64,000 nt of DNA from the NCBI RefSeq assembly GCF_030159955.1, contig NZ_BSNK01000001.1, forward strand, positions 1,240,001-1,304,000. Direction: 5' to 3'. The notes below the pieces were generated by a model, which worked only from the letters and a program-made list of their open reading frames with translations, had not been told where the DNA came from and made no database searches. Origin of the DNA: Algimonas ampicilliniresistens (GTDB lineage: Bacteria > Pseudomonadota > Alphaproteobacteria > Caulobacterales > Maricaulaceae). Shown piece after piece: positions 51,568 through 56,985 of the stretch (positions are counted from its first letter, which is position 1; each line of letters starts with the position of its first letter). The translations under genes were made by a program, and so were the position numbers.

Positions 51568-52236
51568 TTGACCACACCCTCCGATAGTTACGATCGCCAA
51601 GGCTTAGAGGTGTTGCTGGAGAAGTCCCCTCAAAAAATCGTGGGTATAAGCCTGTTAAAGCAGGACCTTAAGAAGTTAAATTTGAGTGATATCATCTTCA
51701 AGGATTGTGATTTCAGTGGATCAGATTTGTCGGGTGCCTATTTGGAAGGGGCCGAGTTGATAGGTTGCAAGGCTTATGGCTCAAAACTCAAATACGCTCA
51801 TTCGGACGACGCAAAATTTCGGAACTGCAATTTGGCTATGACCGATTGGGAGGGCGCACATCTGTCGTCATCTGCGTTCAGTGGCTGCAAGTTGACCGGA
51901 GCAAATTTCCGGAGATCGCATACGCTAGGGATTAGCTTTCAAGAGTGTATTTTGGTCAATGCCATGCTCCAAAATATTTCCTTCGGGAATAGCGAGTTGC
52001 TTCGGAATGACTTTTCTGAGGCAGATTTAGCGGGAGCCGATTTTAGCGACACGACCTTTAAGGAGTGCAGCCTCAGAGGCGCTTGGTTGCGATTGGCAAG
52101 ATTTCGGGGCGCCGATTTACGGGGCTGTGATTTAGGTGGGCTTACCCTAGCTGACGCGATTGTTCTTAAAGGCGCAGTCGTATCGAAAGCTCAAGCGGCC
52201 GAGCTTTTGAGAAGTATCGGAGTTTTAGTGCACTGA
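51568..52236 (+). CDS. Qnr-like pentapeptide repeat protein
   Basis: A 222-residue right-handed beta-helix protein made of A(D/N)LXX-type pentapeptides (FSGSDLSGAYLEGAEL; ADLAGADFSDTTF; GADLRGCDLGGL). Its length and C-terminal end (SKAQAAELLRSIGVLV) correspond closely to the dimerisation tail of Qnr proteins, and segments such as FRNCNLAMTDWEGA and CKLTGANFRRS align by eye with Qnr. Qnr proteins mimic DNA and shield gyrase from quinolones. It uses a TTG start, the first in-frame candidate after the stop at 51550, with GAGAAAG upstream. Codon use looks more AT-rich than its neighbours. Pentapeptide family is certain; the Qnr role is inferred. Confidence 0.8.
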   Translation: MTTPSDSYDRQGLEVLLEKSPQKIVGISLLKQDLKKLNLSDIIFKDCDFSGSDLSGAYLEGAELIGCKAYGSKLKYAHSDDAKFRNCNLAMTDWEGAHLSSSAFSGCKLTGANFRRSHTLGISFQECILVNAMLQNISFGNSELLRNDFSEADLAGADFSDTTFKECSLRGAWLRLARFRGADLRGCDLGGLTLADAIVLKGAVVSKAQAAELLRSIGVLVH

Positions 52237-54665: not shown

Positions 54666-54680
54666 GAACAGATGCTGAAC
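54666..54680. promoter_or_regulatory. alphaproteobacterial LexA (SOS) box
   Basis: GAAC-AGATGCT-GAAC matches the GAAC-N7-GAAC (GTTC-N7-GTTC) direct-repeat box of alphaproteobacterial LexA exactly. It lies about 90 bases upstream of the FAN1-exonuclease start, a usual distance for an SOS-controlled repair gene. Confidence 0.6.
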
Positions 54681-54719: not shown

Positions 54720-54779
54720 TGTGGACAGATCTGGGGACAAGTTTGCGAATAGGTCAGGGGATAAGACTGTGAGTATGGC
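54720..54779 (+). repeat. degenerate 12-bp tandem array with DnaA-box-like units
   Basis: Five 12-base units begin TGTGGACAG, TGGGGACAA, TGCGAATAG, AGGGGATAA and TGTGAGTAT. Units 1, 2 and 4 each match the DnaA box TGTGGATAA at 7 of 9 positions. The array spans the presumed leader and first codons of the next gene. Confidence 0.45.
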
Positions 54780-56985
54780 CCGTGCAACGGACTATATCCG
54801 CACTGAACAACGCCGCTTTCGACGCGCAAAATCCGGAAAGGCGTGGCAAGCGCGCGAACTTCCACAATTCTATTACTTAAACAATTTCAAGCGCTTCATA
54901 GCCGATGTTCACGCCTTAAACTTCGATCTTTTGGGCCGCGATGCACTAGACTTTCTAACTCAATTTGAGGCCCTGCCCCATGCGGCGCAATGCGCCTATG
55001 TTCGAATGGCCAATCGTCGTGGATATGTCTTCGACACGGACAAATTCCGCTATGACGAGATCGACGACCTTCCCGCACAATGGTCAACTTTGTCACAGGC
55101 CAGATTCGCGGACCCGATCGGCACACCTCTGTTCAGAGACTGGCTTAGCAGCCTGCCGAAACCAGACCTCGTGCTGTTGATGACAGATTCAATGTGCGAG
55201 ACCCTGTTTAAGAAATCGTGGAAAAAAGACCGGCTCATTAATCTGGCGAACGCCCATCTCGACCCGGCAGAGGCTTACATCCCAGAGCGATATATTGCTC
55301 AAGGGCGGCGCGATGCGCTGCAATATATGCTGTTCCTATATTTCGGACGAATCGAGGACAATCTGCAAGCCTTCACCTTGCGGGATCTTGGACTGGTGCG
55401 ATTACCAGAGGCCGAGACCCAAGCTTTGAGTTTCGAAACCGTCGAAGAGGCCCGAACCGCGTTCTTCTACGCCAAGGCGCTACATGATTTCCGTCATGGG
55501 ACAGATCATGATGCAGACCGATTAGTCAAAGCCACTGACACATGGCCAGAACCGCTCTGTGAGCGAAGCTCCGCCCATCAGAGCAAACTCATACAAAAAC
55601 TTGGTGGGTGGTCTGAACGTCGCGGCGATGCCCAGTCCGCATTGGAACTTTACACTCGCTCGGACACGCCCTTCTGCAATGAACGTGTGGTTCGTATTCG
55701 CTGGTCTCGGGATGAAGCAGATGATCGCGATTGGTGCAAACAGCGCCTAGAAACGATGATCGAAAACCCCAGCTCTGACTCAGAGGCGGGCTTTGCCGAA
55801 GATTTCTACGCGCGGAAATTTCATAAAAAGCGCACGTCTGCCGCGACGGATTTGCTACGATCTGCGACGACACTTACCCTTGATGAAGCCTTCCGAAACC
55901 AGCCAGAGCGAGCCGTGCTGCGTTATTATAAGGCCAAAGGCATTGAGGCCCATCGGGCTGAGAACGTGCCGTGGCGCAACCTGTTTGGCCTGCTGTTTTG
56001 GGATCTGCTACATGACGGGACAACCTCCCCTCGCCGCGTTCCGCCCAAATTGCGCGCTGGAGCCTTCTACACCGAATATAGTCCAGAGATCGAGGCGAGG
56101 CTCGCTAAGCTCGACAATCCATCGCTCATCCTGCTCGATCTCCTCAAAACTTTGGCGCTGCATTATGGCGAGGACAATGCATTGGTCCATTGGGGCTCGC
56201 GCTCGCTCGACAGAATTCAAGCACTGATCGTGCATGCACCGCGCGGCGGAGTGGCACATCTTCTGCGGCTAATGGCGCAGGACTGGCTGGGCACGAAGGA
56301 TGGGTTTCCGGATCTGATGCTGATCGATGATGGGCGGGTCCGCTTTATTGAGGTTAAAACGGCGGGCGACAGTCTGCGGCGCAATCAACTGACCCGGCTG
56401 CGTCAGCTTTCAATGGCGGGTTTCCCCGTCAAGATCATCAAAGTGGCTTGGGCCGTCGATCCAGACCAACCCTATGTCGTAGTCGATGTAGAAACGACTG
56501 GCGGGAAACCGGGCCTGCACCGCCTTACAGAAATCGGGGCGGTCAAGATGATTGGTGGCGAAGTCGTCGATGAGTTTCAGACCCTGCTCAATCCACAGCG
56601 GTCCATCCCGCCGTTCATCACGCGCATCACCAATATCACCAACGATATGGTTGCTGGCGCGCCGCTCTTTGTTGAGGTCGCCGAACAATTTCGTACCTTT
56701 ATGGGCGACGCCATCTTTGCCGCGCATAATGTCAATTTCGACTATGGGTTTATCTCGGCCGAATATGAGATGATCGATCAGCGCTTCCGGCACCCGAAAA
56801 TCTGCACCTGTGCATCAATGCGGCGGCTCTATCCCGGGTACCGCTCTTACTCACTCAAAAACCTGTGCCAGGAATTCGAGATTGATTTGACCAGCCATCA
56901 CCGTGCTTTGTGTGACGCGCAAGCCGCAGCAGAATTACTGAAAATGATCAATGAAAAGCGGATGTCTAACGCTCAGGAGAGCTAG
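54769..56985 (+). CDS. FAN1-type VRR nuclease fused to a DEDDh exonuclease
   Basis: A 738-residue repair nuclease. The N-terminal region (RELPQFYYLNNFKRFIADV; FEALPHAAQCAYVRMANRRG) is that of bacterial FAN1. A helical middle (ca. 250-440) follows, then a VRR-NUC domain near 475-565 with GFPDLMLIDDGRVRFIEVKT, that is PD-(D/E)xK with Asp at about 514 and E-V-K. Residues about 568-730 are a second nuclease of the DnaQ/DEDDh type: VVVDVETTGG (DxE), AHNVNFDYGF (Asp) and HHRALCDAQAAAELL (His/Asp). FAN1 incises interstrand crosslinks and flaps; a 3'-5' exonuclease could process the product. GTG at 54769 has AGGGG 8 bases upstream; ATG at 54775 is an alternative. Confidence 0.88.
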   Translation: MSMARATDYIRTEQRRFRRAKSGKAWQARELPQFYYLNNFKRFIADVHALNFDLLGRDALDFLTQFEALPHAAQCAYVRMANRRGYVFDTDKFRYDEIDDLPAQWSTLSQARFADPIGTPLFRDWLSSLPKPDLVLLMTDSMCETLFKKSWKKDRLINLANAHLDPAEAYIPERYIAQGRRDALQYMLFLYFGRIEDNLQAFTLRDLGLVRLPEAETQALSFETVEEARTAFFYAKALHDFRHGTDHDADRLVKATDTWPEPLCERSSAHQSKLIQKLGGWSERRGDAQSALELYTRSDTPFCNERVVRIRWSRDEADDRDWCKQRLETMIENPSSDSEAGFAEDFYARKFHKKRTSAATDLLRSATTLTLDEAFRNQPERAVLRYYKAKGIEAHRAENVPWRNLFGLLFWDLLHDGTTSPRRVPPKLRAGAFYTEYSPEIEARLAKLDNPSLILLDLLKTLALHYGEDNALVHWGSRSLDRIQALIVHAPRGGVAHLLRLMAQDWLGTKDGFPDLMLIDDGRVRFIEVKTAGDSLRRNQLTRLRQLSMAGFPVKIIKVAWAVDPDQPYVVVDVETTGGKPGLHRLTEIGAVKMIGGEVVDEFQTLLNPQRSIPPFITRITNITNDMVAGAPLFVEVAEQFRTFMGDAIFAAHNVNFDYGFISAEYEMIDQRFRHPKICTCASMRRLYPGYRSYSLKNLCQEFEIDLTSHHRALCDAQAAAELLKMINEKRMSNAQES

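Follow-up and report, generated by a model that had tools for sequence, protein, structure and literature searches.

How does a bacterial FAN1 nuclease come to be continuous with a DEDDh exonuclease, and what would such a protein do? The question is raised by one gene in the window, by which we mean the whole 64-kb stretch of DNA analysed here. FAN1 is described as important for crosslink repair in humans and for the stability of CAG repeats, and a bacterial FAN1 permanently joined to a predicted 3'-5' exonuclease hints at a function that FAN1 may require once it has incised, with a division of labour that is directly testable within one polypeptide. Both halves belong to known families and endonuclease-exonuclease fusions are already known. 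In the openly licensed literature on FAN1 and VRR-NUC in bacteria we found no description of a FAN1-DEDDh fusion, and no openly licensed paper was found with both 'FAN1' and 'DEDDh', consistent with the statement of an earlier note on this DNA that the fusion is not a described system. A study of Erythrobacter phages, in the portion accessible to us, mentions FAN1, Alphaproteobacteria and exonuclease (PMC12185513). The analysis also provides an identity for genes that the plasmid records looked at call only 'exonuclease domain-containing protein'.

Two nuclease domains in one reading frame

The open reading frame called mechanically spans 54721..56985 on the plus strand and is open for 754 codons (754 aa). 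We kept the start proposed in the earlier note, GTG 54769, over the mechanical start at 54721, because AGGGGA lies 7 nt before it and because the similarity of relatives fades near this codon in their alignment (Table 1). Two numbering schemes are therefore in use, the 754-aa scheme being equal to the 738-aa scheme plus 16.

Table 1. Features of the fusion gene and its upstream region, with positions in the window
Feature	Position	Strand	Details
GTTC-N7-GTTC box, SOS (LexA) type, candidate	54666..54680	-	88 bp ahead of start codon
AGGGGA, Shine-Dalgarno-like	54756..54761	+	7 nt ahead of GTG 54769, read from sequence
FAN1-DEDDh fusion gene	54769..56985	+	738 aa plus stop, start GTG
FAN1 HTH domain (PF21315)	54868..55107	+	residues 34-113 of 738; Pfam
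Further conserved FAN1 Glu codon	55960	+	upstream of VRR-NUC
VRR-NUC domain (PF08774)	56131..56451	+	residues 455-561; PD...ExK at 56308-56358
Junction between both nuclease domains	56452..56475	+	alignment of 76 proteins
DEDDh exonuclease domain (PF00929)	56476..56940	+	residues 570-724; catalytic codons 56485, 56491, 56740, 56899, 56914

On the window protein, Pfam gives FAN1_HTH (1.6e-18), VRR_NUC (2.4e-13) and RNase_T, the exonuclease model (1.8e-38), all above cut-offs, and all three domains are present in 42 of the 42 members of a chosen subset of relatives (A6). The VRR-NUC domain on which the earlier reading depended is thus found by profile search, and the claim of one continuous frame with two intact nuclease active sites is borne out by these domains and by the conserved catalytic columns described below. 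Pfam TPR models match at most 3 of the 42 members, the window protein not among them, and no helicase family and no GIY-YIG domain is found among the Pfam matches of the window protein. Among the 25 of 31 NCBIfam matches listed, no model spans the whole protein, every match lies in the exonuclease half, and the domain model TIGR00573 is the only one above its cut-off.

With phmmer, residues 31-564 (738-aa numbering) align with residues 16-558 of the Pseudomonas FAN1 chain 4r89_A (E 6.4e-22). Residues 581-750 (754-aa numbering) align with the PolC, DinG and DnaQ exonucleases, the nearest solved structures of the exonuclease half; from the extent of these two alignments, the DEDDh domain starts where the Pseudomonas enzyme (PaFAN1) ends. 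By positions counted on the phmmer alignment, an Asp, a Glu and a Lys of the window protein face D507, E522 and K524 of PaFAN1, residues that are named in the accessible part of PMC9635880. When the FAN1 half of the window protein is compared with the four unfused FAN1s of a further alignment (A2), identity is only about 20-27%. As VRR-NUC is not the last domain in the Pfam layout and the DEDDh domain comes after it, we call the protein a FAN1 variant and not a standard FAN1.

Constraint on the fused protein was assessed in an alignment (A5) of the window protein with 75 of the 80 named-genome loci introduced below (76 proteins; L101, L117, L127, L129 and L139 left out), in which eight of the ten scored active-site columns are invariant. 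In 754-aa numbering, Glu414, Asp531, Glu544 and Lys546 of the FAN1 half are kept in 76/76 fused proteins and Pro530 in 74/76, while DEDDh residues Asp589, Asp674, His727 and Asp732 are kept in 76/76 and Glu591 in 75/76. In both Aliidiomarina copies (L148:5989-8175 and L171:5989-8175) the PD of the VRR-NUC motif is replaced by AD, with DEDDh residues intact, and one Bradyrhizobium copy (L130:5980-8184) has Gly instead of the first DEDDh Glu, which may be a true substitution or an error in the sequence. By sequence identity, the exonuclease half is the more conserved and under stronger constraint within the fused proteins: its median pairwise identity is 0.594 (59%) against 0.349 (35%) for the FAN1 half, and it exceeds the FAN1 value in 2847 of 2850 pairs (A5). 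The junction, residues 560-572, is 13 letters long in all 76 aligned proteins. This fixed length would suit a structural role, with the DEDDh domain acting as a module that binds 3' ends and whose catalytic activity does not matter, but every DEDDh catalytic column is kept in at least 75 of the 76 proteins, and we give such a role a very small chance.

Occurrence and origin of the fusion

The fused frame occurs in 18 of 61 near genomes, namely the window's own, 14 more of the genus and 3 more of the family; the count includes one genome (G018) whose match is listed with a stop and whose open frame is nevertheless 743 aa. The remaining near genomes are matched in the exonuclease half, with two of the matches beginning a little ahead of it, and no separate full-length FAN1 is listed there. 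The arrangement that the earlier note had named as evidence against a fusion, with the two domains in separate genes in all close relatives and signs of a sequencing error here, was thus not what we found, as close relatives carry a single gene. Across the order, PF21315 gives a match in 16 of 300 genomes; 15 of these are above cut-off, and their open frames span 726-783 aa. Within the class the FAN1 family is uncommon, being matched in 4 of 387 genomes, own genome included, and in the phylum 38 of 299 genomes match PF21315. Frame lengths in the phylum scan are 724-756 aa for the class, 728-784 aa for one family (f32) except for one interrupted copy, and 539-687 aa for other families.

When 20 fetched stretches were searched with our own profiles, 12 had FAN1 and exonuclease in one frame, 6 had FAN1 alone, one (L080) held an interrupted fused gene and one (L082) gave no match. 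In the interrupted gene, from family f32 (G326, L080:4683-5920), the HTH domain is separated from what follows by two overlapping opposite-strand frames that look like an IS3-type transposase pair. Another genome (G345) has two fused copies far apart on one contig (L073:1944-4130 and L074:4111-6294).

Named genomes were scanned with the FAN1 portion of fused proteins as query; this gave 128 relatives, and the analysis continued with the 80 best. Both halves lie in one frame at 79 of these 80 loci, including two (L117 and L129) that break inside the exonuclease, and the one exception (L139) runs off its contig end; as the loci were found by likeness to fused FAN1s, the figure is no measure of fusion frequency among all FAN1s. 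A sequencing, assembly or frame error as the source of the fusion is ruled out by the in-frame fusion at 79/80 named loci (best 80 of 128) and in 18/61 near genomes, which leaves it virtually no probability. The genera represented include Algimonas, Hellea, Asticcacaulis, Bradyrhizobium, Rhodomicrobium, Mesorhizobium and Tardiphaga, as well as Alteromonas, Salinimonas, Aestuariibacter, Aliidiomarina, Paraglaciecola, Pseudoalteromonas, Thalassolituus, Woeseia and members of the Verrucomicrobiales. The architecture, which the earlier note had proposed to look for across Alphaproteobacteria, is found there and is not confined to them: the fusion spans Alpha- and Gammaproteobacteria and Verrucomicrobiales. 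One distant alphaproteobacterial FAN1 without exonuclease (G952, L175:3956-5428, 491 aa), from one of the four genomes matched in the class scan, lacks a stretch between the HTH domain and the rest, and no exonuclease match was found anywhere in its 10 kb. No virus or phage copies were found, either in a pattern-based scan of viral contigs or in phage records.

The origin of the fusion was addressed with trees of both halves. In a quick tree of the FAN1 part, with 79 rows chosen from 150 frames (L078 and L080 deliberately dropped), the 50 fused and 29 unfused rows fall on opposite sides of one branch with an SH-aLRT of 99; the exonuclease-lacking FAN1 mentioned above (L175) forms a very long branch and its position is unsure. 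In a careful tree built from 64 exonuclease domains, 27 of them fused and 37 others, the fused exonucleases group at 96/87 and their sister group is weak (53/13). Because the fused FAN1s and the fused exonucleases each group in their trees, the fusion probably arose once, as one old event. The unfused proteins that score best as relatives of the exonuclease half include three exonuclease-GIY-YIG proteins, with the Pfam GIY-YIG model above cut-off in two (L183 and L186) and just below it in the third (L182); a descent of the exonuclease from such proteins, hinted at by the scores, was set aside, as the tree gives no sister relation (53/13). Horizontal spread of the fusion is likely given its patchy distribution, and individual transfers stay candidates: the FAN1 tree places Thalassolituus (L153) among alphaproteobacterial rows and the exonuclease tree places it outside them, and in both trees Woeseia (L110) stands with alphaproteobacterial rows, at weak forks.

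Upstream boxes and neighbouring genes

The candidate box ahead of the gene (Table 1) has the form GTTC-N7-GTTC, which we take to be the alphaproteobacterial LexA (SOS) box type. It is the sole match within the 64-kb window, where 2.03 would be expected by chance, and the evidence for the box is therefore its place and its conservation. In the same genome, GTTC-N7-GTTC lies about 40 and 180 bp ahead of the lexA and recA domains, respectively, as the only match per stretch. With the named loci (best 80 of 128) sorted into classes by the organism names in their records, the box lies no more than 250 bp ahead of the FAN1 domain in 38/45 alphaproteobacterial copies (with L101 omitted), compared with a chance expectation of 0.011 per 250 bp (21 in 462,680 bp of alphaproteobacterial flanks), and in 0/22 gammaproteobacterial and 0/10 Verrucomicrobiales copies (L124 and L132 left out). 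Among the seven alphaproteobacterial copies without it, three (L114, L116 and L129) have one further upstream and four (L112, L117, L127 and L170) have none within 2.5 kb. A second count, on genomes partly shared with the named loci, found the box in the 350 bp upstream of 13 of 17 relatives. In five Bradyrhizobium loci (L112, L114, L116, L160 and L170) a serine recombinase, by Pfam on L116:5526-7613 only, or its homologue lies near the fusion gene, and four of these five are without a near SOS-type box. No sigma-70-type promoter was found upstream on the plus strand.

Gammaproteobacterial copies were searched for CTGT-N8-ACAG with at most one mismatch, which is present in 14 of 22 copies (only 2 exact) and in 76 of 890 control windows from gammaproteobacterial loci; elsewhere it precedes 5/45 alphaproteobacterial and 1/10 Verrucomicrobiales copies. 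Taken together, the boxes indicate that the fusion gene is probably switched on by DNA damage. The CTGT-N8-ACAG motif precedes 16 of 27 unfused FAN1s of the phylum (6 exact; a count made with no separate control windows), a hint that control by DNA damage predates the fusion. Speaking against this, PaFAN1 (PA1865) is reported in PMC12796719 to be induced by UV-C and ciprofloxacin, yet it is grouped there with genes that belong to none of the three damage regulons known in P. aeruginosa.

The window copy sits among ordinary genes with no repair gene adjoining; a pentapeptide-repeat-like protein, read from the translation, is encoded at 51568-52236, about 2.5 kb before the fusion gene, and in two relatives the downstream genes belong to the polyprenyl-synthetase and fatty-acid-desaturase families. 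No neighbour conserved across all classes was found, the largest neighbour cluster being generic ABC ATPases (three frames scanned). In five gammaproteobacterial loci a small HNH-like protein (Pfam HNH just below cut-off, L123:5518-5919) lies directly upstream. SRAP homologues are found in the flanks of 6 of the 80 loci (best 80 of 128), four directly upstream (one a fragment) and two about 4 kb off; SRAP proteins act on abasic sites and HMCES contributes to interstrand-crosslink repair, according to the part of PMC9436759 available to us. The SRAP homologues, and the Y-family polymerases described next, are confined to some Bradyrhizobium and Mesorhizobium.

A Y-family polymerase homologue is present in the flanks of 12 of the 80 loci (best 80 of 128), in 10 of them within about 105 bp, and Pfam confirmed Y-family domains on three scanned neighbours, one a fragment. 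Such proximity, together with the PolC, DinG and DnaQ exonucleases as nearest solved structures, would speak for an exonuclease that serves re-synthesis and not the incised strand: it would trim or proofread the 3' primer end as a translesion polymerase carries synthesis beyond the unhooked lesion, and FAN1 would be the unit that does the targeting. We consider this rather unlikely, however, as the 6-kb flanks of the other 68/80 loci hold no such homologue and the polymerase lies mostly on the opposite strand where it does occur, so that the two genes form no operon.

Mobile replicons were considered as well. A FAN1 match was found in 14 plasmid records, 9 of which (Burkholderia, Vibrio) are below 27% identity, and on the conjugative plasmid p172_1 of Bradyrhizobium sp. 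172 (L210:3161-6142) the fusion gene directly follows an SRAP gene, and a gene annotated as GTPase-associated system protein lies nearby. The latter neighbour, the patchy distribution, the presence of copies among the replicons of the plasmid collection, including a conjugative one, and matches of PADLOC models to the exonuclease half would fit an anti-phage or anti-plasmid defence nuclease. This reading is improbable in our view, as SOS-type boxes stand ahead of most alphaproteobacterial copies, the window copy has the ordinary surroundings described above, and the PADLOC matches cover the generic exonuclease only. Membership in a defence system was rejected on the same PADLOC matches and on PHROGs matches that lie in exonuclease and VRR-NUC pieces.

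Proposed division of labour and known enzymes

Our preferred reading, held with moderate confidence and built on sequence comparisons, is that the fusion is an SOS-induced repair enzyme for crosslinks or adducts, in which FAN1 would incise and the 3'-5' exonuclease would trim the cut strand. FAN1 incises 5' flaps at a distance of a few bases beyond the branch and, after this first cut, shows 5'-3' exonuclease activity (PMC4103454), and DEDDh enzymes work 3'-5' (PMC11194089), as stated in the accessible parts of both papers. The earlier picture of incision followed by resection consequently needs revision, since the added domain would trim from the 3' end of the incision, opposite to FAN1's own 5'-3' direction, and would not resect onward. 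The crosslink or flap repair role that accompanied it retains indirect backing from the SOS-type box, the damage-tolerance neighbours in some hosts and the published DEDDh exonucleases of crosslink repair, all of which are compatible with such a function.

In the proposed mechanism, forks that hit interstrand crosslinks or bulky adducts would lead to inactivation of LexA, and the fusion protein would be made. Its FAN1 part would bind branched DNA and cut the strand that carries the 5' flap, a few bases inside the duplex, so that one strand is unhooked. As the incised strand offers a 3' end, the likely split is FAN1 incision with trimming in both directions: the attached exonuclease would trim 3'-5' from the end left by the cut while FAN1 trims 5'-3', the unhooked remnant would be shortened from both sides, and a gap would be left for translesion or repair synthesis. 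More tentatively, we consider it possible that this amounts to crosslink unhooking by one protein with two polarities, in which the 5'-3' activity of FAN1 and the 3'-5' activity of the rigidly attached DEDDh domain leave a small remnant. If true, two-polarity unhooking would define a crosslink-repair route distinct from UvrABC, SOS-induced and horizontally spread, with a Y-family polymerase or an SRAP protein coupled to it in some hosts.

Among known systems, the closest to the FAN1 half is PaFAN1 (PA1865; PDB 4r89, 5y7g), to which it can be aligned over the full FAN1 length with HTH and VRR-NUC domains shared, but PaFAN1 stops where the junction begins and is without a DEDDh domain. The ExoDinG proteins, such as S. 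aureus DinG, likewise join a DEDDh exonuclease to another DNA enzyme, the difference being that their partner is a helicase and their exonuclease is N-terminal; in the accessible parts of the respective papers, both activities of the S. aureus exonuclease-DinG are required for mitomycin C and formaldehyde resistance (PMC12345164), and exonuclease-DinG is reported as not LexA-regulated (PMC11981726). Exonuclease-GIY-YIG (Cho/UvrC-like) fusions also combine a repair endonuclease and a DEDDh exonuclease in a single chain, and for the mycobacterial form cutting followed by digestion has been proposed (PMC1564403, available in part), whereas their endonuclease fold is unrelated and their domain order is reversed. 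Finally, MrfB of Bacillus subtilis resembles the exonuclease half as a DEDDh 3'-5' DNA exonuclease of mitomycin C repair (accessible part of PMC11194089), but it is a separate protein that works with the helicase MrfA and is without a FAN1 part.
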